Source: Armatimonadota bacterium (lineage in GTDB: Bacteria; Armatimonadota; Fimbriimonadia; Fimbriimonadales; Fimbriimonadaceae). From it: a DNA stretch of 64,000 bases. Location of the stretch: positions 124,404 through 188,403 of the forward strand of contig JAFDWR010000004.1 of NCBI GenBank assembly GCA_018268355.1, written 5' to 3'. The first letter of the stretch is position 1, and every line of letters begins with the position of its first letter. This document shows positions 3,001 through 47,359 of the stretch, piece after piece. The position numbers and the translations under genes are program-made. The notes beneath the pieces were generated by a model. That model saw only the letters and a program-made list of their open reading frames with translations, had not been told where the DNA came from and did no database searches.

Positions 3001-3630
3001 ATGAGCGAGGGACGAATCGGCGTGGACGAATCGGGCAAAGGGGACTTCTTTGGCCCATTGGTGGTGGCGGCGTGCTACGTCGGCCCCGAGCACTTGGCTG
3101 AGCTCGATGGGGTGAAGGATTCCAAGAAGCTGACCGACGCCCAGGCGATCCAACTTGCCGAACGCATCCAGCGCGTTTGTCCGTTCTCCATCGTGGCGAT
3201 TGGCCCGGAAAAGTACAACGAAATGTACTTAAAGTTTGCCAATTTGAACAAGCTCCTCGCCTGGGGCCATGCCCGCGCCATCGAGAATGTGCTTGAAGTC
3301 CAGCCCGCGAAAACCATCATCAGCGACGAGTTCGCCAAGGGCGGCGGGCGCGTGAAGTCCGCCCTGTTCGAGCGCGGCCGACAAGCGGAATTCGTCAGCC
3401 GAGTCCGCGCCGAAGCCGATCTCGCCGTCGCGGCGGCCTCGATCCTCGCCCGAGCAGAGTTTCTTCGCCGGCTCAAAAAGCTGAGCATCGAATTTGGCAT
3501 CGACCTCCCGAAAGGGGCGACCAACGTGATCGGCACTGGAAAGCGATTTGTCTCCCTCCACGGCCCCGAAGCCCTCGGCAAGGTCGCCAAGCTCCATTTC
3601 AAGACCTCCCAGCAGGTGCTCGCGCCGTGA
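3001..3630 (+). CDS. rnhC: Ribonuclease HIII, short form
   Basis: It cleaves the RNA strand of RNA-DNA hybrids, clearing primers and R-loops. The signature D-E-S-G-K-G-D-F-F-G-P-L-V-V-A (residues 9-23) is the HIII form; HII has D-E-a-G-R-G. Asp9, Glu10 and Asp109 are candidate metal ligands, and the V-K-D-S-K-K-L and A-A-A-S-I-L-A-R motifs are present. Known RNase HIII proteins are around 300 aa with an N-terminal TBP-like substrate-binding domain. Here the catalytic domain begins at residue 5 and the protein is 209 aa, so that domain is absent. The ATG at 3001 is chosen because the catalytic motif follows at once. It overlaps the next gene by 4 nt (GTGA). Confidence 0.88.
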   Translation: MSEGRIGVDESGKGDFFGPLVVAACYVGPEHLAELDGVKDSKKLTDAQAIQLAERIQRVCPFSIVAIGPEKYNEMYLKFANLNKLLAWGHARAIENVLEVQPAKTIISDEFAKGGGRVKSALFERGRQAEFVSRVRAEADLAVAAASILARAEFLRRLKKLSIEFGIDLPKGATNVIGTGKRFVSLHGPEALGKVAKLHFKTSQQVLAP

Positions 3631-4400
3631 TCCGCCTCTCGTCAATCACGATCTATCCGATCAAGTCGCTCGGTCCGGTTTCGCTCGAGGAAGCAGTGGT
3701 GGAGCCGCGCGGCCTGCGCGACGACCGCCGCATGATGATGGTCGACCCCGAGGGCAAGTTCATCACCCAGCGGCAGCACGCGGGCCTTGCCTTGTTTCGC
3801 GTGAAACCCCATGCCGAAGGCTGGGAGCTGAGCCACCCCGACCACGGATCTTGCCTCGTCCCCCGCGAACCCAGCGGTGGACGCCTCGACGTTGTGGTTT
3901 GGAAGAGCGACGTTTCCGCGCGGCTCGTCGATCCCACCGTCGATTCGTGGTTGTCCAAAGCCACCGGACTCTCGGTCCGGCTCGTGGCGATGGATGACGA
4001 GTCGCACCGGCCTTGTGGCGAGGGTGAGGTGAGCTTTGCCGACGGCTATCCAGTGCTCCTCATCGGCGAGGCCTCGCTGGCCGAGCTGAACCGCCGCGTG
4101 GGCGAGGGCCTCTCCATGCGCCGATTCCGAACCAACCTCACGACGACCGGTGGCAACCCCCACGATGAGGATGCCGCGCGTTGGGTCCGGCTCCCGGATG
4201 CCGAATTTGAGAACGTAAAGCCCTGCGGCCGATGCATCGTGACCACCCTCGACCCCGACACCGGCGAGGGCGGCGTCGAACCGCTCCAAACGCTCGCCAC
4301 CTATCGAAAGGAAGGCCAGAGTGTGAACTTCGGCGTGAACCTGGTTCCGACTCGTCTCGGGACCGTTCGTGTGGGCGACCTTGTCAATTTCGAGCGTTGA
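3627..4400 (+). CDS. MOSC domain protein (YcbX/mARC-like)
   Basis: The N-terminal MOSC_N beta-barrel part begins with Y-P-I-K-S-L and continues to about residue 110. The C-terminal MOSC domain contains R-R-F-R-T-N-L and the conserved Cys region C-G-R-C (about residues 200-203). Members of this family bind the molybdenum cofactor and reduce N-hydroxylated compounds. The GTG start at 3627 overlaps the rnhC stop as GTGA, indicating translational coupling. No electron-transfer partner (ferredoxin domain) is fused at the C-terminus, so the redox partner must be elsewhere. Confidence 0.85.
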   Translation: MIRLSSITIYPIKSLGPVSLEEAVVEPRGLRDDRRMMMVDPEGKFITQRQHAGLALFRVKPHAEGWELSHPDHGSCLVPREPSGGRLDVVVWKSDVSARLVDPTVDSWLSKATGLSVRLVAMDDESHRPCGEGEVSFADGYPVLLIGEASLAELNRRVGEGLSMRRFRTNLTTTGGNPHDEDAARWVRLPDAEFENVKPCGRCIVTTLDPDTGEGGVEPLQTLATYRKEGQSVNFGVNLVPTRLGTVRVGDLVNFER

Positions 4401-16697: not shown

Positions 16698-17738
16698 CTA
16701 CTCGCCTCTGCCCAACTCTTTCGACATATCCACCAGCTGGTCGAAGTCGCTCGTCGGCGTCTCCGCTTCGAGCGCCCGCCGGCGGTCGGTCCACTTCTCG
16801 AACTCGCCGAGAGCCTTGCTCACGGCTTCCTCGTGGCTGACCCTCCCCGCGTTATCGAGCACGCCGAGTTCGTTGAACTGAAGGAATGCATCAAGCCGCT
16901 CCTTCCAATCCGCCATCGTCATGGCGCGCCGCCGCTCGGCCATCGACTCCGCAAAGTCGAGGTACTGCGTGACCAGGCGATTCAGGCGGCGAATCTCATC
17001 CTCGTTCAGGAAGTTCTTCGCGACCTTCACGTCCTCCCGACGGATCGGTCCGCCAGGAGCTTGCTTCCAAGTGGTGAGCCCCATATTCGGCTGCGAGGCA
17101 TCGACCCGGTCAGCGATCAGCTCGGCGGCGGTTTGACCATGAATCGCCCAGTGGAGCTTGTTCTGGACCGTCGCATAGAACTCCTGCGTAAGCGGATGCC
17201 GTTTGTCGTAATCGATCGCGGTGGCGTAGATGTCAGTGACCTTTTGGTAGAACCGCCGCTCGCTCGCGCGGATGTCGCGGATGCGTTCCAGGAGCTCCTG
17301 GAAGTAGTCGGCGCCGAGATTTCGACCCTCTTTCAGTCGTTCGTCGTCAAGCACAAAGCCCTTGACGAGGTACTCACGCAGCCGCTGGGTGGCCCAGATT
17401 CGAAACTGGGTGCCCCGGTGGGACCGAACCCGATAGCCGACCGAGATGATGACGTCGAGGTTGTAGTGGGTCAGGTTCCTTTGAACCTGCCGCGCACCTT
17501 CCGACCGAACTTGTAAGAATTCCTTACAAGTTGCCTCCGAACTTAGCTCGCCTTCCTCAAAGATCGATCGAATGTGCTGCGTGATGTTCTGGGGGGTCGT
17601 GTTGAACAACTCCGCCATTTGCGCTTGGGTCAGCCATACGGTTTCCCCGTAGAGCCTCACCTGAACGCAGGCAGCACCATCGGCGCTTTGAAACAGCAGG
17701 AACTCAGAACCATCCGGTCGTTCAGGAAGGCGACTCAT
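16698..17738 (-). CDS. RhuM family protein
   Basis: The protein has the features of the virulence RhuM family. The N-terminal domain (about 1-130) contains V-W-L-T-Q-A-Q-M-A-E-L-F and T-P-Q-N-I-T-Q-H-I, a helix-turn-helix-like segment, then H-Y-N-L-D-V-I-I-S-V-G-Y-R-V. The C-terminal part contains A-E-R-R-R-A-M-T-M-A-D-W. Length (346 aa) is typical. Family members are cytoplasmic, spread horizontally and often sit in defence or mobile regions; the molecular role is not settled. It has its own -10-like TATAGT just upstream and lies next to the repeat island, which fits acquisition as a separate unit. Confidence 0.85.
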   Translation of the reverse strand: MSRLPERPDGSEFLLFQSADGAACVQVRLYGETVWLTQAQMAELFNTTPQNITQHIRSIFEEGELSSEATCKEFLQVRSEGARQVQRNLTHYNLDVIISVGYRVRSHRGTQFRIWATQRLREYLVKGFVLDDERLKEGRNLGADYFQELLERIRDIRASERRFYQKVTDIYATAIDYDKRHPLTQEFYATVQNKLHWAIHGQTAAELIADRVDASQPNMGLTTWKQAPGGPIRREDVKVAKNFLNEDEIRRLNRLVTQYLDFAESMAERRRAMTMADWKERLDAFLQFNELGVLDNAGRVSHEEAVSKALGEFEKWTDRRRALEAETPTSDFDQLVDMSKELGRGE

Positions 17739-32198: not shown

Positions 32199-33326
32199 AT
32201 GACCAGAACGCAAGCTTGCCAGATTCAAGACTTCCTGTTTTCTGCGGCGGGCCGCACGACGTCGGTGGTCACCTCGGCGGGGACGACGAGTTTGACCTAC
32301 GACTATGAGTCGCGGCTGACGTCGGTCACGGGGCCGGGGATCACGGCGAGCTACACCTACAACGGGCTCGACACCCGGGTCGGGAAGACGGAGAACGGAA
32401 GCACCCAGGTCTACAAGCGGGATGGGGTGTACGTCACTGATGATGTCCTCAGTGACAGCAGCGCGTTTTACACGCCGGGAGTGAGCGAACGTCGCGCGGG
32501 GACGACGAGCTACCTCCATGGTGGCCTCAAGAACCAGACCCGCCAGACCAATTCTTCGCAAACCACCACCGCCACGCGAACTTACGATGCCTTTGGCAAC
32601 GTTACTTCTAGTAGCGGGACGTGGAACGGCCTGTTTGGGAATGCTGGTGCCTTTGGATACCAAGAAGACGCCACCGGCCTCAAGCTCCTTGGACACCGGT
32701 ACTACGACTCGTCGCTGGGTCGGTTTATCACCCGCGATCCGGCAAAAGATGGAAGAAACTGGTATGCGTATTGTGGGAACGATCCCCTTAACTGGGTTGA
32801 TCCCAGTGGCTTTCGTCTGTGGGTGGTCGTTGCCATAGAGCCTGGCGGTTTTCAAGGTTCAGGCAGTCATGCTATGGTCGGTGTCTGGGACGATGTCACG
32901 GGCCAGATTGAATGGTGGGGGTTTTACGGTGATGGATATGTTCAAGACGAAAAGAATGCGCCATCAAAGAAAGCCAAAATATTCATGAAAGAGATCACTA
33001 AGGAGAAGGCAAAGGAAGTACGGGACAAGGCGAAGCAAGAGAAGAAAAAGGGAAAACAGGGGTACAAACTTAGAGGGAAGAATTGTGCTGACTTTGTCTT
33101 TGACTTTCTTCAGTCTCTTGGGTTAATCGATGATGACGGAGATTCGGGTTCCAACGCGACCAGTGGGTATGGTTTTAGTCCAAAGGATTTTGCTGGATTA
33201 CTAGAGAAGCAAGGTTGGCGACCAGCTCCGTCAACAGGCAAGACGATTCCTAGGTCAAATGGCGGAAACGGCGGAAGCACCGGCGGCAGTTCTGGCGGCA
33301 GTTCTGGTGGAGGAGGAGGAAATTGA
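32199..33326 (+). CDS. Orphan Rhs core fragment with C-terminal tip domain
   Basis: Residues 15-200 are YD-repeat/Rhs sequence ending in the conserved core G-R-F-I-T-R-D-P (174-181), Y-A-Y-C-G-N-D-P (189-196) and D-P-S-G (201-204). Full Rhs proteins are over 1000 aa; here the N-terminal cage is missing and an in-frame stop lies just upstream, so this is an orphan or silent tip cassette. The tip (205-375) is more A-rich in codons. It has S-H-A-M-V-G-V with His224 and K-N-C-A-D-F-V with Cys296. That His-then-Cys order suggests a permuted papain-like (NlpC/P60, LRAT or PPPDE type) fold (inference). It ends in a Gly/Ser-rich tail and overlaps the next gene by 4 nt. Confidence 0.75.
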   Translation: MTRTQACQIQDFLFSAAGRTTSVVTSAGTTSLTYDYESRLTSVTGPGITASYTYNGLDTRVGKTENGSTQVYKRDGVYVTDDVLSDSSAFYTPGVSERRAGTTSYLHGGLKNQTRQTNSSQTTTATRTYDAFGNVTSSSGTWNGLFGNAGAFGYQEDATGLKLLGHRYYDSSLGRFITRDPAKDGRNWYAYCGNDPLNWVDPSGFRLWVVVAIEPGGFQGSGSHAMVGVWDDVTGQIEWWGFYGDGYVQDEKNAPSKKAKIFMKEITKEKAKEVRDKAKQEKKKGKQGYKLRGKNCADFVFDFLQSLGLIDDDGDSGSNATSGYGFSPKDFAGLLEKQGWRPAPSTGKTIPRSNGGNGGSTGGSSGGSSGGGGGN

Positions 33327-39861: not shown

Positions 39862-41229
39862 ATGGCAAGGTTTGGTCACGAAGTTAGGATCGAAACGGGG
39901 GCACAGTTACGTGTCGACCCGCGCGTGGTCATGGCGAGCCAGGTTCTCCAGCTGAACTCGATGGAGCTTGAGCAGTACATCGAGAGCGAGCTCAACGAGA
40001 ATCCTGCCCTTGAGCGGCTCCAGGATGACGAGGAGCGGATGAGCGACGAAGCGATCCTCCAGGTCATCGCCCCCGACGAATTTCGACCCCAGAGCGACGA
40101 CTATGAGGTCAAACGCTCGCTTCCCAACGACGAAACCCTCGATTGGCTCGACTTCGCTTCCAGCTCGACCAGCCTTTGGGAGCACCTTGAAGCTTCGTTG
40201 TTGCCCCAACTCCCGCCCGAACTGCGCGGCTGCGGCCAATATGCAGTCCAGAACGTGAACGAGCGCGGCTACTTCGAGTCGACGGTCGAAGACCTCGCGC
40301 TTGAAACGGGCGTGTCGCTCGAAGAGGCGGAAGCCGTCTTGCGTGCGCTCCAGACTTGCGAGCCGCACGGCGTCGGCGCAAGGGACGTCCGCGAGTGCCT
40401 CATCCTCCAGCTTCAAGGCTCGGAAGAGCCGATCGACCGGCTGGCGAGGGCGATCCTCACCCACCACATGGACGACTTCATCGCCCGGAAGGCGCACCGC
40501 ATCGCGCGGCGGTTCAAGATCGACATCGACGTCGTTGAGCAGGCCTTTGGCGTCATTTTGGGCCTCAACCCCTATCCGGCGGAGGGCTATCAGACCTCGT
40601 CTGCCCCCACTCGCGAAAGCCGCGCGGTGAGCGTCATCCCCGACCTCGTGATTGACCGAACCGAGCAGGGTTGGGTGATCGAGGTGAAGGGGGCACACCC
40701 GGCGAGCCTCGCCCTGAACCGGGAATACAAGAAGCAGTTTGAATCGGCGAAGTCACTGGATGTTGGCGAGCGACGCCACATCTCGACCTACGTCTCGCGG
40801 GCACAGGACTTCATCCAATGCCTCCAGCAAAGACGGGCGACCCTCATGCGGATCGGCGAATACCTCGTCCAGCACCAGGCGGGATTCGTCACCACCGGCG
40901 AGTATCAGTACCTTCGCGCGCTCACCCGGTCCAAGATGGCGGCCGACCTCAACGTTCACGAAAGCACGATGAGCCGGGCCACCCAGGGCAAGTTTGTCCA
41001 ACTCCCGAACAAGGACATCGTCCCGTTCGAGGTGTTCTTCAAGCCCGCCCTTCGGGTGCAAAAGATGATCGAGGAGATCCTCGCGACCGAGAACCCGGGG
41101 CGACCCCTTTCCGATGATGCGATTGCCCAGATGCTCGCGGAACGCGGCATCAAGGTGGCCCGGCGCACGGTGAACAAGTACCGCGACCGGACCAAGCTGC
41201 TTAGCTCACGTCGCCGACGTGCGGCTTAG
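39862..41229 (+). CDS. rpoN: RNA polymerase sigma-54 factor
   Basis: Region I is Gln/Leu-rich (Q-V-L-Q-L-N-S-M-E-L-E-Q-Y-I). The core-binding region follows (about 90-250). The DNA-binding region ends with the RpoN box A-R-R-T-V-N-K-Y-R near the C-terminus, which reads the -24 element. The ATG at 39862 is preferred over the GTG at 39844 (six residues longer). Sigma-54 needs enhancer-binding ATPases; none is encoded in the window, and no convincing TGGCAC-N5-TTGC promoter was seen. The stop overlaps the convergent neighbour by 4 nt. Confidence 0.95.
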   Translation: MARFGHEVRIETGAQLRVDPRVVMASQVLQLNSMELEQYIESELNENPALERLQDDEERMSDEAILQVIAPDEFRPQSDDYEVKRSLPNDETLDWLDFASSSTSLWEHLEASLLPQLPPELRGCGQYAVQNVNERGYFESTVEDLALETGVSLEEAEAVLRALQTCEPHGVGARDVRECLILQLQGSEEPIDRLARAILTHHMDDFIARKAHRIARRFKIDIDVVEQAFGVILGLNPYPAEGYQTSSAPTRESRAVSVIPDLVIDRTEQGWVIEVKGAHPASLALNREYKKQFESAKSLDVGERRHISTYVSRAQDFIQCLQQRRATLMRIGEYLVQHQAGFVTTGEYQYLRALTRSKMAADLNVHESTMSRATQGKFVQLPNKDIVPFEVFFKPALRVQKMIEEILATENPGRPLSDDAIAQMLAERGIKVARRTVNKYRDRTKLLSSRRRRAA

Positions 41230-42161
41230 TCGTCGGTTCGGACGAGCCGGAAGTCGGTGCCGAACTCGGCATCCTTGAAGCCCGCCTTGTTGAGGCGCTG
41301 ATTCAGACCGATCGAGAACTTCTCCGCAACGCCGGTGATCATGTTGGCTGCTTTTTCCACCCCCGCCATGTCGTTGGCTTGGATCGCGGTGCCAAGGCTC
41401 ATCATCACCTTCGGAAAGGTCACGTAGAGGTCGTTCGCGATGTAGCTGTGGACGCCTTCGAGGCTCTTCGGCGGCTTGATCTTCAGGAGCAGGGTTCGGT
41501 AGGCCGACATCTCGGAAGCGAAGCCTTGGAACGCCTTCTTCGCCACGCGGCGGCTGTCCTTCGAGATTCCGTCCGACGTCTTCTTGTTGCCCATGTAGAG
41601 CTGGAGGCGGGTGGCCGACTGGGTTAGCTTCTCCGCTTGCTGGTTGAGCGCCTTCTCGTATTCGGCGACGGAAAGGTGGGGCGCGCGGACAAATCCCTTG
41701 TTGGCGTTGAACTTCGCGTAGTCAAACCCGGCGTCGTCCATCTCGCGCATGAGGTTCTTCATCATGCCGTCCATCCTCGCGCCAATGTTGACCTTGCTGA
41801 GTGTGCTCGGGTCGTTGCCCGGGTTCTTCATCGCCCGGAGGGCGCGCTCAAGGTCGGGGACCACGCCCTGGCCAAGTCGGCCCCAAGCTCGGTGGAATCG
41901 CTGCAGTTCGACCGGCGGGGTCACTTCGAGTGCATCGACCTCCACCGCGTTGAGGGCGTCGATGAGGATGCTCAGATTCGAGCTAATCGCGTTGAGGTCG
42001 CCAGCACCGCTGAACTGGGCGGCAGTGACGCGCGGAACGAGAATTGTCTGCGTGTAGTTGCGGAGCCAGTCGTTGTACTTCGACAGCGACATCGGCGTTT
42101 GAGCTTGAACGGCGCCGACAACGAGCAGGGCAGCGAGAGAAAGGAAGGTTCGCGATTTCAT
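41226..42161 (-). CDS. Exported protein with two copies of the P-P-x-E-L/F-H domain (array member 1)
   Basis: The ATG at 42161 begins a signal peptide ending A-V-Q-A-Q, with no lipobox Cys, so it is secreted rather than lipidated. It carries the unnamed domain twice. Copy one has T-P-P-V-E-L-Q-R-F-H-R-A-W and then A-G-F-D-Y-A-K-F. Copy two has K-P-P-K-S-L-E-G-V-H-S-Y and then A-G-F-K-D-A-E-F-G-T-D-F-R-L-V. Each copy is mostly helical. It is the last gene of a three-gene operon with 4-nt ATGA overlaps. No function is known to me. Confidence 0.75.
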   Translation of the reverse strand: MKSRTFLSLAALLVVGAVQAQTPMSLSKYNDWLRNYTQTILVPRVTAAQFSGAGDLNAISSNLSILIDALNAVEVDALEVTPPVELQRFHRAWGRLGQGVVPDLERALRAMKNPGNDPSTLSKVNIGARMDGMMKNLMREMDDAGFDYAKFNANKGFVRAPHLSVAEYEKALNQQAEKLTQSATRLQLYMGNKKTSDGISKDSRRVAKKAFQGFASEMSAYRTLLLKIKPPKSLEGVHSYIANDLYVTFPKVMMSLGTAIQANDMAGVEKAANMITGVAEKFSIGLNQRLNKAGFKDAEFGTDFRLVRTDD

Positions 42162-42718
42162 GGGTTCGGTTTGGCGACGGGGACAAATTCCGTCTTCTGT
42201 GTCCAAGCGTTGACGTCGTAACCAGCGACGATGAGAGCCCGCTCGATCTTCTGGCGGTTCTTCTCGCTGGAGTCAGTGATGGCATTGAGCGCGGTGTCGA
42301 GAGCGGCGTCGGAATCCATGTTGGCGGCTCCGAGCGAGATGTCTCCAAGGCCGGTGGTCAGGGCGGTCAGAGCATCGGAATAGGCAAGATGGAACTCGTT
42401 GAGGTCGACGGGGTGCGGAAGGCTTCGCAGCTCGGGCGCGAGGGCGTCGAGCGATGCCTTCGCCTTACCCGCCAGCTCGGCAAGGGCCTTGCGCCGTCCG
42501 GCGACGTCCATCGACTTCAGGGCTTCTTGCTTGTTGCCGAACTCAGAGAGGACGGCTCCGACCTTGGCGTTGAACTCCTTGATCTTCCCGGCGTAGGTCT
42601 TGAGCGCTTCGGGGTCAACCCGCCCGACCTTTCCGATGTCGGTGGTCTGGACCTTCGGCGTGCATCCGGCGGCAATCAACGCAACGGCGACCGCGCCGAG
42701 TAGGGCGTTCTGCCTCAA
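42158..42718 (-). CDS. Lipoprotein of the tandem family (array member 2)
   Basis: The signal peptide ends in a lipobox I-A-A-G-C (residues 15-19). The 186-aa protein has the family layout: an N-terminal helical half, a central P-H-P-V-D-L-N-E-F-H-L-A-Y turn, a second helical half, and the C-terminal A-G-Y-D-V-N-A-W motif followed by E-F-V-P-V. It is the most diverged member around the central motif. Its start and stop overlap both neighbours by 4 nt, so the three-gene operon is tightly coupled. Confidence 0.75.
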   Translation of the reverse strand: MRQNALLGAVAVALIAAGCTPKVQTTDIGKVGRVDPEALKTYAGKIKEFNAKVGAVLSEFGNKQEALKSMDVAGRRKALAELAGKAKASLDALAPELRSLPHPVDLNEFHLAYSDALTALTTGLGDISLGAANMDSDAALDTALNAITDSSEKNRQKIERALIVAGYDVNAWTQKTEFVPVAKPNP

Positions 42719-43266
42719 CTTCCCGCCTCCAGCGCGAAGTCGTTCTGCCAGGCCACCATGCTGTAGCCCGCCTTCGACACCGTATCGAGCAGTTCCGCTT
42801 GTTGCAACTCGCTCGCCTTGGCGAGCTTGGATACGGCGGCCTTAAAGTCGTCGATCTTTCCGGTCTTGAGCGCGGCAATCACCTCACCGATTTGGACGTC
42901 GGTCTCGGCCATCTGCTTCGCTCGAAGCTCGTGGAATGCGGCAAGGGCGGACGGCGGAGTGAGCGACTTCCATTCCTGCATCGCGCCTTCGCCGATCATG
43001 CGGACCTTTTCAAAGTGCTTGGCGGCGGCGGCAAAGGCCTCAGGCGTTGCCCCTTTCGCGAGCGCGTCGGCAACCGCCTTATCTTCCGATTCCAGCGCCT
43101 TGCTTTTCTCGGTCATCCCATCATAGAGCTTCTTCACCTTGGTGGCGTAGTCGCCCATCGGGGCTCCCCCCGCGGGAGGGGCGGATGCCGCTGGCGATTG
43201 ACACCCAGAGACAACTCCAATGATCGCCAGCCCGGCGAGGAGGATTCCAAGAGCAAACCGCTTCAT
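42715..43266 (-). CDS. Lipoprotein of the tandem family (array member 3)
   Basis: The ATG at 43266 begins M-K-R-F-A-L-G-I-L-L and leads to the lipobox V-S-G-C. The central motif is T-P-P-S-A-L-A-A-F-H-E-L and the C-terminal motif is A-G-Y-S-M-V-A-W. It is the first gene of the operon with members 2 and 1. Upstream it has the TTTGACA box 30 bp before the ATG and the CCTCTTGG sequence at the start codon, both shared with member 4. It is 183 aa. Confidence 0.75.
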   Translation of the reverse strand: MKRFALGILLAGLAIIGVVSGCQSPAASAPPAGGAPMGDYATKVKKLYDGMTEKSKALESEDKAVADALAKGATPEAFAAAAKHFEKVRMIGEGAMQEWKSLTPPSALAAFHELRAKQMAETDVQIGEVIAALKTGKIDDFKAAVSKLAKASELQQAELLDTVSKAGYSMVAWQNDFALEAGS

Positions 43267-43303
43267 TCCAAGAGGTTGTCGGTTTTGGGGGTGAAATGTC
43301 AAA
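43267..43303 (-). promoter_or_regulatory. Conserved upstream box, array member 3
   Basis: TTTGACA (43297-43303) lies 30 bp before the ATG, followed by CCCCCAAAACCGACAACCTC and then TTGGA at the start. The same layout precedes members 4 and 5. It could be a promoter or an operator; no good -10 is visible. Confidence 0.5.
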
Positions 43304-43320
43304 GGGTTGGGCCCTTGAGC

Positions 43321-43360
43321 AAAAAAGCGCCAGGAGGCTTTGAACCTCCCGGCGCTTTGC
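43321..43360 (-). terminator. Rho-independent terminator, array member 4
   Basis: On the minus strand, a stem AAGCGCCGGGAGG...CCTCCTGGCGCTT is followed by a T-run. It separates member 4 from the downstream three-gene operon. Confidence 0.8.
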
Positions 43361-43381
43361 GGATTGTAGAAAGGAAAGGGC

Positions 43382-43972
43382 TTACTTGGCCTTCTTGACC
43401 AACGTCAAGTCCTTCCTGTAAGCCGGGATGTCAAAGCCAGCCTCTTCGAGTGCCTTGAACTGCTTCTGATCGCTCTCAACGACTTTCTGGCTCACTCCCG
43501 CAATGGCGACCTTGACCTGAGCGACGTCACCAGCTTTGAGGGCGTCAATCAAGTTTCCCATCGCCTCCAAAATCTCGGCTGAGCCCTCGGTCGCAGCCCG
43601 ATGAAACTCCTGTAGCTCCGCAGGTGGAGTCACGGAGGCCAACTCGGCGAAACGGGCACTCGATTGGCTCTTCGCCGTGACCATCAAGCCCTCAAACTCC
43701 TTCATGGCTTCGGCCCTTTTTGCAGGATTGGAGAGGCTCTTCACAGTCTCTCCCATCTTGGCGTTGAGCGGCTCCATTTCGGCATTCATTGCGCGGGCCA
43801 TTTTTATGAGAGTCGCCTGATACTGTTCAAGAGTCAGGGCAGACGTGGTGGCCGGATTGGTACTGGCACCGCCATTGCCAACCGCTGGGGCAGGAGCTTC
43901 GCCACCTCTGCAGCCAAAAAGAGCGACGGCAACGGAGAGGCCAGAAAGAACCATAAGAAAGGTTCGCTTCAT
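43382..43972 (-). CDS. Lipoprotein of the tandem family (array member 4)
   Basis: The ATG at 43972 starts M-K-R-T-F-L-M-V-L-S-G-L and leads to the lipobox A-L-F-G-C. The Ala/Pro/Thr-rich linker (about 21-40) should span from the membrane. The helical domain has the motif T-P-P-A-E-L-Q-E-F-H-R-A-A and ends A-G-F-D-I-P-A-Y-R-K-D-L-T-L-V-K-K-A-K. It is the closest relative of member 5. It has its own upstream box and its own terminator, so it is expressed as a single gene. It is 196 aa. Confidence 0.78.
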   Translation of the reverse strand: MKRTFLMVLSGLSVAVALFGCRGGEAPAPAVGNGGASTNPATTSALTLEQYQATLIKMARAMNAEMEPLNAKMGETVKSLSNPAKRAEAMKEFEGLMVTAKSQSSARFAELASVTPPAELQEFHRAATEGSAEILEAMGNLIDALKAGDVAQVKVAIAGVSQKVVESDQKQFKALEEAGFDIPAYRKDLTLVKKAK

Positions 43973-44009
43973 GCCAAGAGGGTGCCGCCTTGGGCTTGAG
44001 ATTGTCAAA
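43973..44009 (-). promoter_or_regulatory. Conserved upstream box, array member 4
   Basis: TTTGACA (44003-44009) lies exactly 30 bp before the ATG, followed by CCCAAGGCGGCACCCTC and TTGGC at the start codon. It matches the layout before member 3. Confidence 0.5.
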
Positions 44010-44031
44010 GGGGTGGTGCCAAGAAACGAAG

Positions 44032-44063
44032 AGCGCCGGGCAGGTTTGAACCTGCCCGGCGCT
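44032..44063 (-). terminator. Perfect 15-bp hairpin after array member 5
   Basis: AGCGCCGGGCAGGTT pairs perfectly with its complement around two bases. The T-run on the minus strand is weak, so termination strength is uncertain. Confidence 0.6.
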
Positions 44064-44089
44064 GAATTTCAAGTGTAGTTACGAGAGCC

Positions 44090-44698
44090 TTACTTGGCCT
44101 TCTTAACGAGCTTCTTGTCCTTCTTGTAGGCCTCGACATCAAAGCCGGCGGCTTCGAGAGCCTTCATGCGCTTCTCTTCGCCTTCCATCTGGAGCTTGCC
44201 CATGGATTCGGTAGCTTCCTTGACCTTGGCTTCGTCGCCCGTCTTGAACGCATCGATCATCGCGCCCATCGAGGTCATCAGCTGGCCCGAGCTCTCCTTC
44301 GAGATCTCGTGGAACTCCTTGAGCTCGGCGGGAGGATTGACCGCCGACATCTCAGCGATCAGCGTGGCAGCCTTGTCCTTCACCTTGGTGAAGATCTCAG
44401 CGATCTTGTTCATCGCTTCAGCCTTCTTGGCGGGATCGGCAGCGTTCTTCTGCGCTTCGGCCATGTCGGCGTTGTGCGTTTCCATTTCGGCGTTCATCGC
44501 CTTCTCCATGGATTCGACCTTGGCCTGATACTCTTCGACGGTCAGGGCTGCGGTGGTTGCGGGAGCGCTGCTGCCGCCGGTAGCCTTGGGAGCTCCGCTG
44601 TCGCCTGCGGTTGCTGCAGGAGCGTCGCCGCCTTTACAGCCAAAAAGGGCGCCGGCGACCATGAGGCCAGCGAGAACGAGAAGTGAAGTTCGCTTCAT
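44090..44698 (-). CDS. Lipoprotein of the tandem family (array member 5)
   Basis: Signal peptide M-K-R-T-S-L-L-V-L-A-G-L then lipobox A-L-F-G-C, followed by a long Ala/Gly/Ser/Thr linker (about 22-50). The domain has N-P-P-A-E-L-K-E-F-H-E-I at its centre and ends A-G-F-D-V-E-A-Y-K-K-D-K-K-L-V-K-K-A-K. The helices are rich in Ala, Glu, Lys and Met and look like a helical bundle. It is 202 aa. It is monocistronic between the hairpin at 44032 and the next gene. It shares the TTTGAC upstream box with members 3 and 4. Confidence 0.78.
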   Translation of the reverse strand: MKRTSLLVLAGLMVAGALFGCKGGDAPAATAGDSGAPKATGGSSAPATTAALTVEEYQAKVESMEKAMNAEMETHNADMAEAQKNAADPAKKAEAMNKIAEIFTKVKDKAATLIAEMSAVNPPAELKEFHEISKESSGQLMTSMGAMIDAFKTGDEAKVKEATESMGKLQMEGEEKRMKALEAAGFDVEAYKKDKKLVKKAK

Positions 44699-44736
44699 GC
44701 TCCCAAGGGTGGCCTTTTTTGACCTCTAAAGTCAAA
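44699..44736 (-). promoter_or_regulatory. Conserved upstream box, array member 5
   Basis: TTTGACT (44730-44736) lies 31 bp before the ATG, with CCACCCTTGGGAGC adjoining the start codon. It is a looser match than before members 3 and 4. Confidence 0.4.
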
Positions 44737-44746
44737 TCGCAGGCGT

Positions 44747-45358
44747 CTACTTGAGCGGAACGAAGGCCTGATTGGCCGCAAAGCGGTCGGGATCGAAGCC
44801 CGATCTGCGCAAGATTTCACCAGCTTCTTTATCCATTTCAAGGTTCCGTCGACGAAACTCGTCGGCGCGGGTGCGAAAGAGCAGGGCATCGGCCTTCTCG
44901 GCCGCATCGGCGAGCTTTTCGATGCCGATCACCGTTTCGTCCGCCTTCTGCAGCTGATAGCTGTTCCACTCGTCGAGCTCGGCGGGCGGATTGATTTTCT
45001 CCATCGGCTCGGAGATTCGGTGAAGGTCCCGGGCAAAGGCATAGAGCGTCTCTGCGCCGAGCTTGAGCTGGTTTCTGGCCTCGCCTTTGGCCTGATTCAC
45101 TGCCGCCAGTAGGAGGCTGATCTTGGGCGCGTACTTTTCACCCACGCGGCCAAAGTCGCTCGAATAGCGGTGGATTCGCTCCTGGAACTGGGCAATGGTC
45201 ATCTCGCCGGGAGCGCGCTTGGCCGGACGGGCCTTTTTGACCACCGGCTTGGGCGTTCCGGGTGCCTGCACGGGCGTGGCAGCATAGTCCGAACGGCACC
45301 CCGTGAGGGCGATCGTCAGCACGAGTCCAGTCCCGAGCCAAGTTCGACGTTGCAGCAT
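44747..45358 (-). CDS. Lipoprotein of the tandem family (array member 6)
   Basis: The ATG at 45358 (M-L-Q-R-R-T-W-L-G-T-G-L) leads to lipobox A-L-T-G-C. A basic Pro/Lys linker precedes the domain. The centre reads N-P-P-A-E-L-D-E-W-N-S-Y, with Trp-Asn in place of the usual Phe-His, and the C-terminus reads S-G-F-D-P-D-R-F then A-F-V-P-L-K. It is therefore the most diverged single-domain copy. The frame stays open to 46096, but that region is antisense to the acyltransferase and is not part of the gene. It is 203 aa and divergent from the lipoprotein at 45419. Confidence 0.75.
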   Translation of the reverse strand: MLQRRTWLGTGLVLTIALTGCRSDYAATPVQAPGTPKPVVKKARPAKRAPGEMTIAQFQERIHRYSSDFGRVGEKYAPKISLLLAAVNQAKGEARNQLKLGAETLYAFARDLHRISEPMEKINPPAELDEWNSYQLQKADETVIGIEKLADAAEKADALLFRTRADEFRRRNLEMDKEAGEILRRSGFDPDRFAANQAFVPLK

Positions 45359-45418: not shown

Positions 45419-45715
45419 ATGCGCACGATTTGCCTCGCCGTTCTCGCACTTTTCGCAGTAGGTTGCGCGAAGAAAGAAGACCCCGCCCCGACGTCGGCTC
45501 CGACTGCCGCCCCCAAGTCGGCCCAGAACGAGCAAGGTGGCGGCACCCCCCAAGCGGGAACGCCCTATGCTCCCGGTGCGGGACCGGTGTCGCCGGTTTC
45601 GGGCGAAGGCGTTGAGGGAGGCGGAAGCGCGGCGGGCCAGGTCGCCAAGGACCGCGCCAAGCAAGCCGCCCAGCGAGCCTCGGGATCGTCGCTCGATCAG
45701 GCCGAGGGCAACTAA
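45419..45715 (+). CDS. Small low-complexity lipoprotein
   Basis: The signal peptide ends in the lipobox A-V-G-C (residues 13-16). The mature 82 residues are rich in Pro, Ala, Gly and Ser, with a charged C-terminal helix (A-K-D-R-A-K-Q-A-A-Q-R-A). No family is recognised. It is followed 9 bp later by the acyltransferase gene, so they may share a transcript. Confidence 0.65.
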   Translation: MRTICLAVLALFAVGCAKKEDPAPTSAPTAAPKSAQNEQGGGTPQAGTPYAPGAGPVSPVSGEGVEGGGSAAGQVAKDRAKQAAQRASGSSLDQAEGN

Positions 45716-45724
45716 CCTCGAGCC

Positions 45725-46405
45725 TTGGGGACCCAAGAATCCGGGATCGTCGGAACGTTTGTCGGCAACTACATTCGCCGCGCGGTGCGCAAGGCGTTTC
45801 GCCGACTCTATTGGATTCCGCCCACTGACCTGCCCGAAGGGCCGATCATCTACGCCACGAACCATCACGGCTGGCACGACGGCTATGTGATGTTCCACGT
45901 GGTCAGCGCGCTCCAGCGTCCGGCCCTCGATTGGATCGCCGAGTTCGAGGCATTCCCCCTGTTCAGGACCGTTGGCGGCATGCCGTTCCCGCCGAATGAC
46001 CCCCAAGCGCGGGCGATCACGATCCGCAAGACGATCCGGCGGATGCGCGACGAGAAGAAGGACCTGATTCTCTTTGCCGAGGGCATCCTCCATCACGGGC
46101 CCGACCTGCTTCCGTTTGGCGAGGCGCTAGAGCTGGTCGCGAAGAAGGTGCCCGGCGTGAAGGTCGTCCCCACCGCGATTCGCTATGAGATGAACATGCA
46201 CGAGCGGCCCGAGGCCTATGTCCTCTTTGGCGCGCCTCTCGATCCGGAGACGAAGAACCTGCGCGTGGCGACCCGGGACGAGGTGAAGCGGCTCCTCGCC
46301 GAGGCATCCTTCCGGGTTCGGAAAGAGCCCGACACCTTCAAGGTCCTCGCCCAAGGCACGCTTGATGTTAACGAACGGTGGGATGTTCGCAAGTTCAAAA
46401 AGTGA
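45725..46405 (+). CDS. 1-acylglycerol-3-phosphate acyltransferase-like protein
   Basis: PlsC-type acyltransferase. The catalytic H-x4-D is N-H-H-G-W-H-D (His47 to Asp52). The substrate motif F-A-E-G (117-120) stands for F-P-E-G, and the lipid-binding P-T-A-I-R-Y follows. The start is TTG; no ATG fits. It lies 54 bp before phytoene synthase, and acyltransferases of this type are common in carotenoid clusters, where they add fatty acids to glycosylated carotenoids. It may therefore act on carotenoids rather than phospholipid (inference). It has no predicted membrane helix. Confidence 0.82.
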   Translation: MGTQESGIVGTFVGNYIRRAVRKAFRRLYWIPPTDLPEGPIIYATNHHGWHDGYVMFHVVSALQRPALDWIAEFEAFPLFRTVGGMPFPPNDPQARAITIRKTIRRMRDEKKDLILFAEGILHHGPDLLPFGEALELVAKKVPGVKVVPTAIRYEMNMHERPEAYVLFGAPLDPETKNLRVATRDEVKRLLAEASFRVRKEPDTFKVLAQGTLDVNERWDVRKFKK

Positions 46406-46459: not shown

Positions 46460-47359
46460 TTGCCCTTGAGTCTCGATTCCCACCCGACGGACCACGCCCC
46501 TTTTGCATCGGAGCAAGACTTCGAGGCCTGTCGTCGCCTGCACCGCACGTACGGAACCACCTACTACTTCGCGACGATGCGGTTCCCGAAGGAGATTCGA
46601 CGCCGAACCCACGCGATTTATGGGTTTGTTCGGGTGCCCGACGAATGGGTGGATAACCCTGGCGAGTTGAGCCTTGCCGACCGCAAGCAAAAGCTTGATG
46701 AATGGCGCGACTCCTTACACCATGGCCTGGAAGGCGTCCGCCCCGCCCACCCGGTCATGCGCGCCTTCGTCGACGTCGTCCGTGAGGCCCAGATCGACGT
46801 CCGCGAAGCCGATCTCTTCCTTGATGCGATGGAGGCCGACCTCGATGTTCGCCGCTATGCGACCTACGACGATCTTCGGGGCTACATGCGCGGGAGCGCA
46901 GCGGCCGTCGGACTGATGATGTGCGATGCGCTCCGTGCGGACCGTCGGGAGGACATTCGCGAAGGGGCAATTGCACTCGGCGAGGCGATGCAGCTGACCA
47001 ACTTCCTCCGCGACGTGGGCGAGGATTCCACCCGGGGGCGGCTGTACATGCCGCTGGAAGACCTCGACCGATTCGGCGTGACCGAGGCCCAAATCTCGGC
47101 GGGGCAGGTCAGCGAGGGTTGGCGGGCGTTGATGCAATTTGAAATTGACCGGGCGCGCGCGCTCTATGCCCGCTCGGACGAATCAATCCCCTATCTGCCA
47201 TCCGAGATGCGGCGGGCGGTGCGGCTTGCCCGCGAGCTGTATGCCCGGATCCTCGACCGCATCGAGAGTCAGGATTACGATGTCTTCAGCAAGAGGGCGC
47301 GAACCACGACGCTGGAAAAGCTGGCGGTCGCCGCCCGCTACTCGCTCGTTCGACCGTAG
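46460..47359 (+). CDS. crtB: Phytoene synthase
   Basis: It joins two geranylgeranyl diphosphates to phytoene, the first carotenoid step. The two Asp-rich motifs are D-E-W-V-D (61-65) and D-V-G-E-D (185-189), and the signature N-F-L-R-D-V-G-E-D-S-T-R-G-R-L-Y-M-P is complete. Length (299 aa) is typical. The first in-frame start is TTG at 46460 (another TTG at 46466). No phytoene desaturase or cyclase is in the window, so the rest of the pathway is elsewhere. Squalene synthase-like enzymes share the fold, so the product should be confirmed. Confidence 0.88.
   Translation: MPLSLDSHPTDHAPFASEQDFEACRRLHRTYGTTYYFATMRFPKEIRRRTHAIYGFVRVPDEWVDNPGELSLADRKQKLDEWRDSLHHGLEGVRPAHPVMRAFVDVVREAQIDVREADLFLDAMEADLDVRRYATYDDLRGYMRGSAAAVGLMMCDALRADRREDIREGAIALGEAMQLTNFLRDVGEDSTRGRLYMPLEDLDRFGVTEAQISAGQVSEGWRALMQFEIDRARALYARSDESIPYLPSEMRRAVRLARELYARILDRIESQDYDVFSKRARTTTLEKLAVAARYSLVRP

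Follow-up and report, generated by a model that had tools for sequence, protein, structure and literature searches.

Why should one bacterial chromosome carry six consecutive genes for exported proteins that resemble one another and belong to no named family, and what might such a set of proteins do? The genes lie on the minus strand of a 64,000-nucleotide stretch (the window) of contig JAFDWR010000004.1, from the Armatimonadota assembly GCA_018268355.1 (family Fimbriimonadaceae), and are designated m6 to m1 in order of transcription (Table 1). The open reading frames are those of a first reading made from the letters alone (the original prediction), and together with an alignment of the encoded proteins they bear out its description of six exported proteins in tandem with seven domains, five of them (m6 to m2) bearing a lipobox, whose cysteine is the sole cysteine in the array proteins. 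The remaining protein, m1, has a plain signal peptide instead and contains the domain twice, at about residues 23 to 160 and 161 to 311. The genes m6, m5, and m4 stand apart from one another, whereas m3, m2, and m1 are coupled as predicted, and are very probably co-transcribed given their stop-to-start overlaps. We propose that the array may be a lineage-specific expansion of a single exported domain, predicted to fold as a four-helix bundle.

The relationship among the seven domains is carried by the alignment and by searches of the 2.7-Mb genome. The motifs PP..L..FH and AGFD...LV, noticed in the original prediction, are collinear across the copies, with individual exceptions: m6 has N in place of H, m2 has HP in place of PP, and m3 lacks the final LV. 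Smith-Waterman scores against shuffled sequences reach z 48 for m5 and m4, which alone among the copies are similar (about 50%), and z 4 to 15 for either of these against the others, most of which are 15% to 26% identical to m5; the pairs m3/m1a, m1a/m1b, and m6/m3 (m1a and m1b being the domains of m1) are at noise when taken singly and are linked only through m4 and m5 or through a profile. Searching the whole genome with m5 alone recovered m4 (E-value 1e-54), m6 (4e-7), m3 (1e-6), and m2 (5e-5), with m1 found weakly (0.34), and a profile built from the seven array domains themselves detected no further copy in the genome. Taken together, the seven domains cannot owe their resemblance to chance, although some of the pairs, considered singly, could.

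None of the copies falls in a Pfam or NCBIfam family, and there was no strong match to a characterised family, in keeping with the earlier view that the domain is unnamed. Scans of the members, the alignment, and the consensus yielded nothing above cut-off, save that the consensus scored exactly at the curated threshold of DUF7018 (PF22872; 27.8 bits), with the best member at 18.8 bits. DUF7018 is the top-ranked Pfam model for m5 and the consensus, it weakly matches the C-terminal domain of an M48 metallopeptidase and one zinc-ribbon protein (both described below), and it likewise has no assigned function. We give the consensus score little weight, because coiled-coil families score closely too, and regard membership as no more than possible.

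The AlphaFold model of m5, computed with 13 aligned domains, is a four-helix bundle (residues 5 to 37, 43 to 69, 75 to 104, and 107 to 134) with a capping helix, at a mean predicted local distance difference test score (pLDDT) of 96.3 and a predicted template modelling score of 0.86. In the model of m1, the second domain repeats this helix pattern at a pLDDT of about 80; the first shows a similar order at low confidence, probably because few sequences could be aligned. Of the most conserved columns (Y8, PP73-74, H81, A101, G136, D138, the aromatic residue at 142, and LV148-149), the majority would fall together at a single end of an up-down bundle of this layout, for which reason we read the two motifs as probably forming a structural cap that closes that end. 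Sequence searches of the PDB returned mostly designed bundles and coiled coils, and Foldseek found no significant match there, the best matches again being designed proteins. The top fold match for m5 in VIA-align was 2ap3 (Z 11.0, root-mean-square deviation 3.0, 138 residues), a staphylococcal protein of unknown function which we take to be a YkyA-family structure; its Z is no higher than background among helical bundles.

Close relatives of the array proteins are rare. Applied to 113 genomes from the order, the seven-domain profile found relatives (E-value ≤ 1e-4) in three other genomes only, and an enriched profile run over 291 Armatimonadota genomes added one member (G062) and weak matches. 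The original prediction had proposed looking for tandem arrays in related genomes; Fimbriimonas ginsengisoli has two adjacent genes, encoding a lipoprotein and then a protein with a plain signal peptide, and elsewhere in the few other genomes the genes are single. Outside Armatimonadota, searches covered pattern scans, plasmids, the PDB, and family libraries, so that a wider spread is possible. A scan of genome contigs returned nothing with m5 and only contig JACDEQ010000154, which equals the G040 contig in length, with an alignment of m4, m5, and the relative G040; plasmids contained no relatives of the array, and literature searches on lipoproteins from this lineage turned up nothing on the family.

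More remote versions of the domain may be far more widespread. Six of the weak matches to a profile of the array alone, in six genera (E-values 0.001 to 0.009), all fall in one kind of protein, in which a zinc ribbon is followed by a transmembrane helix, a linker, and, at the C-terminus, a helical domain containing a PP..C turn. Profile-profile comparison matched this helical domain to the array over the domain core with 92% to 93% probability, and on these two grounds kinship between them is probable. When two zinc-ribbon proteins and the M48 C-terminus were added, the resulting profile matched 155 of the 291 Armatimonadota genomes (the window's own among them), usually once per genome, a figure that measures spread and not kinship because zinc-ribbon proteins were already in that profile. 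Remote copies also form the C-termini of an M48 metallopeptidase and of a TPR protein (L104).

We tentatively favour, at somewhat less than even confidence, the reading that the array encodes membrane-tethered, periplasm-facing adaptor or cofactor bundles with diverged partners. Five copies would be lipid-anchored, most likely in the inner membrane at its periplasmic face, and m1, encoded last in the coupled trio, would supply a free two-domain form. The cap, which draws on a helix 1 tyrosine, on the PP..L..FH turn joining helices 2 and 3, and on the AGFD...LV segment at the C-terminus, would be kept along with the scaffold, while the helix faces would have diverged to bind different exported partners, such as enzymes or wall components. 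What points to a tethering role is that there is no conserved set of catalytic, haem, or metal residues, that the helices differ while the cap and size persist, and that a lipid anchor is usual. Armatimonadota belong to the Terrabacteria. Diderm members of that group are described as having neither outer-membrane lipoproteins nor a Lol pathway (PMC11784454, which does not itself name the phylum), which makes inner-membrane anchoring likelier and renders doubtful the surface function suggested in the original prediction.

The closest functional parallel comes from YkyA/PdcF (PF10368) of Bacillus and Staphylococcus, four-helix lipoproteins that tether secreted enzymes and act as their cofactors, and whose domain is also found fused to enzymes; PdcF is reported to tether and support secreted deacetylases (PMC12700454). 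Both groups are exported lipoproteins with a mature four-helix bundle, the array having five lipoboxes and a model of m5 at pLDDT 96, and it is because PdcF, of the same build, acts in this way for deacetylases that we prefer a tether or cofactor role. The array differs from YkyA/PdcF in its tandem arrangement and in the lack of a sequence-profile match: the YkyA profile matched none of the six proteins, nor anything at an E-value ≤ 0.01 in the genome, and since this profile test failed we do not claim membership. Several further points weigh against our reading. No secreted deacetylase or obvious client is noted beside the array in the list of open reading frames of the window, and its only conserved neighbour is a plsC-crtB pair. 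Four-helix bundles are common, and the structural matches (best Foldseek E-value 0.026, Z 11) are at the level expected for bundles in general. The M48 and TPR fusions come from weak profile similarity, and partner binding by the array members is suggested by analogy.

A different use of the same fold would be the binding of small molecules, each copy delivering or sequestering its own periplasmic ligand in the manner of chemoreceptor sensor domains (TarH, PcaY_PP). The VIA-align neighbours of m5 include the ligand-binding domains of Tar, Tsr, and PcaY_PP (Z about 8 to 8.8), there are weak profile matches to TarH, CHASE3, and 4HB_MCP_1, and the remote version of the domain sits, sensor-like, behind a transmembrane helix and a zinc ribbon. 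Yet the Z values are again at the bundle background, the profiles remain below their cut-offs, and the conserved residues resemble an end cap more than a pocket. Moreover, chemoreceptor sensor domains share the periplasmic four-helix bundle with the array, but the array proteins are lipid-anchored or free: all six begin with a signal peptide or lipobox and end with the bundle and cap, with no second transmembrane helix and no cytoplasmic or transmembrane signalling part. We regard ligand binding as unlikely. The haem- or metal-carrier variant, modelled on the cytochrome b562/c' fold, is extremely improbable: m4 weakly matches the cytochrome b562 profile (E-value 0.0012) and cytochrome c' chains occur among the Foldseek matches, but there is no CXXCH, no cysteine beyond the lipobox, and no conserved Met-His pair, and the near-invariant histidine is asparagine in m6.

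It could also be asked whether the copies need differ in function at all, or whether the family is redundant and kept by dosage, for which the original prediction had suggested selection, or by drift. The hairpins predicted after members 4 and 5 are real (z -5.3 and -6.6), have in common a sequence pattern that chance would not be expected to produce in the window, and align to each other beside the aligned gene ends of m4 and m5; from this likeness, the most recent duplication, that of m4 and m5, appears to have carried gene and terminator together, which would suit such redundancy. Against it, the other copies are strongly diverged and unlike one another in how they are anchored and how many domains they have, and the m4/m5 pair is under purifying selection (dN 0.35, dS 1.17, dN/dS about 0.30) with codon adaptation opposite in the two genes. 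Corrected for amino-acid composition, codon usage leans toward that of ribosomal proteins in m5 (z +2.1) and m1 (z +3.0); m4 is the most deviant (z -7.0) and least adapted of the window genes compared, and its GC content at third codon positions (0.65) is the lowest in the array, though its sister m5 leans the opposite way. Dosage is further disfavoured by a tree that places G040, which comes from a different family, closer to m4 and m5 than it places the other array copies; the rest of the tree is poorly supported, and the array as a single clade gave a p-AU of 0.24. We consider redundancy a rather poor explanation, and the copies may plausibly have diversified in function.

The C-termini raise another alternative, namely that the lipoproteins are envelope spacers whose terminal lysine is cross-linked to peptidoglycan by YkuD-type transpeptidases, like Braun's lipoprotein (Lpp). 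Seven of 12 close members, all lipoproteins (m4, m5, m6, G040, F. ginsengisoli 1, G049, and G062), end in lysine, compared with 9.5% among 410 genes from relatives; the two plain-signal proteins both end differently. The binomial probability of this excess is 4e-5, or about 1e-3 with obvious duplicates merged, values that err on the optimistic side, since the excess is a post hoc observation among related members (neither m4/m5 nor G049/G062 are independent). The genome encodes two YkuD proteins, and m5 has a fairly high raw codon adaptation; however, YkuD is common, the adaptation of m5 drops to the modest value above once composition is corrected, and m3 and m2 lack the lysine. Lpp is a 58-residue coiled coil. 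It resembles the array in being a small helical lipoprotein, but the array domain is a four-helix bundle of 150 residues, outer-membrane lipoproteins are not to be expected in this phylum, and Lpp is described as narrowly distributed (PMC11784454). The lysines and YkuD permit a wall link and do not demonstrate one; a spacer role is very unlikely, and a convergent Braun-like link between membrane and wall, made by unrelated four-helix lipoproteins bound covalently to peptidoglycan through that lysine, is less probable still.

Table 1. Features of the array, its neighbourhood, and remote versions of the domain (window positions unless a locus is given).
Feature	Position	Strand	Description
Array, m6 to m1	41226-45358	-	six consecutive genes for exported proteins
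m6	44747-45358	-	lipoprotein, LTGC lipobox, 203 aa, one domain, C-terminal Lys
m5	44090-44698	-	lipoprotein, LFGC lipobox, 202 aa, one domain, C-terminus KKAK
Hairpin after m5	44032-44063	-	terminator-like, z -6.6
m4	43382-43972	-	lipoprotein, LFGC lipobox, 196 aa, nearest paralogue of m5
Hairpin after m4	43326-43356	-	terminator-like, z -5.3; resembles hairpin after m5
m3	42715-43266	-	lipoprotein, VSGC lipobox, 183 aa, leads coupled trio
m2	42158-42718	-	lipoprotein, AAGC lipobox, 186 aa, TTG start overlaps m3 stop
m1	41226-42161	-	signal peptidase I type signal, 311 aa, ATG overlaps m2 stop
plsC-like acyltransferase	45725-46405	+	divergent neighbour; syntenic with two-gene locus of F. ginsengisoli
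Squalene/phytoene synthase (crtB-like)	46460-47359	+	adjoins plsC at most examined loci of the order
Zinc-ribbon, transmembrane, helical PPPEC-domain protein	L160:4100-5050 (window's own genome, contig C3)		adjoins rimO-like gene; no Pfam match
M48 metallopeptidase (G050)	L138:1498-2799	-	lipoprotein-like N-terminus; array domain in remote form at C-terminus

The string TTTGAC stands about 35 bases upstream of the ATG in m3, m4, and m5 (window 43258-44780, minus strand), with no recognisable -10 box, and is possibly a promoter of unfamiliar type. Sigma-54 control, an idea prompted by the convergent neighbour rpoN, was rejected: a GGCAC...TGGCA-like string seen by eye before m4 abuts the start codon, is absent at m3 and m5, and is put down to chance.

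On the other side of the array lies the plsC-crtB pair, from which the two-gene version in F. ginsengisoli is likewise divergent; at both loci the pair has no adjoining desaturase. Most of the plsC loci examined in the order also have the pair, which frequently adjoins a carotenoid-type desaturase and is not accompanied by the array family; in a survey of 40 plsC-anchored loci, the array profile matched beside plsC only in F. ginsengisoli and in the window. Because the pair so often occurs without the family, the association ties the array to a chromosomal location, and it shows no role in carotenoid synthesis. Between the array and plsC, a small low-complexity lipoprotein is encoded (45419-45715, plus strand), and a similar one with an AAKD.A...AA tail precedes plsC at locus L067 (about 3434-3802). 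Elsewhere in the window, a RhuM-like protein (16698-17738, minus strand) and the last part of an RHS-repeat-type protein that carries a C-terminal extension (32199-33326, plus strand) were recognised by eye.

Taken as a whole, the array represents a genuine but nameless family of lipoproteins predicted to be four-helix bundles. It looks like an ordinary membrane-held binding or helper kind and not like a novel sort of system, and its members would be annotated as hypothetical proteins since neither Pfam nor NCBIfam has a name for them. The probable link to the zinc-ribbon proteins would open a way to study a domain that occurs widely in a little-explored diderm phylum, extending to about half of the sampled Armatimonadota, and F. 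ginsengisoli, which is cultured, offers in its simple two-gene version a form of the family open to experiment.

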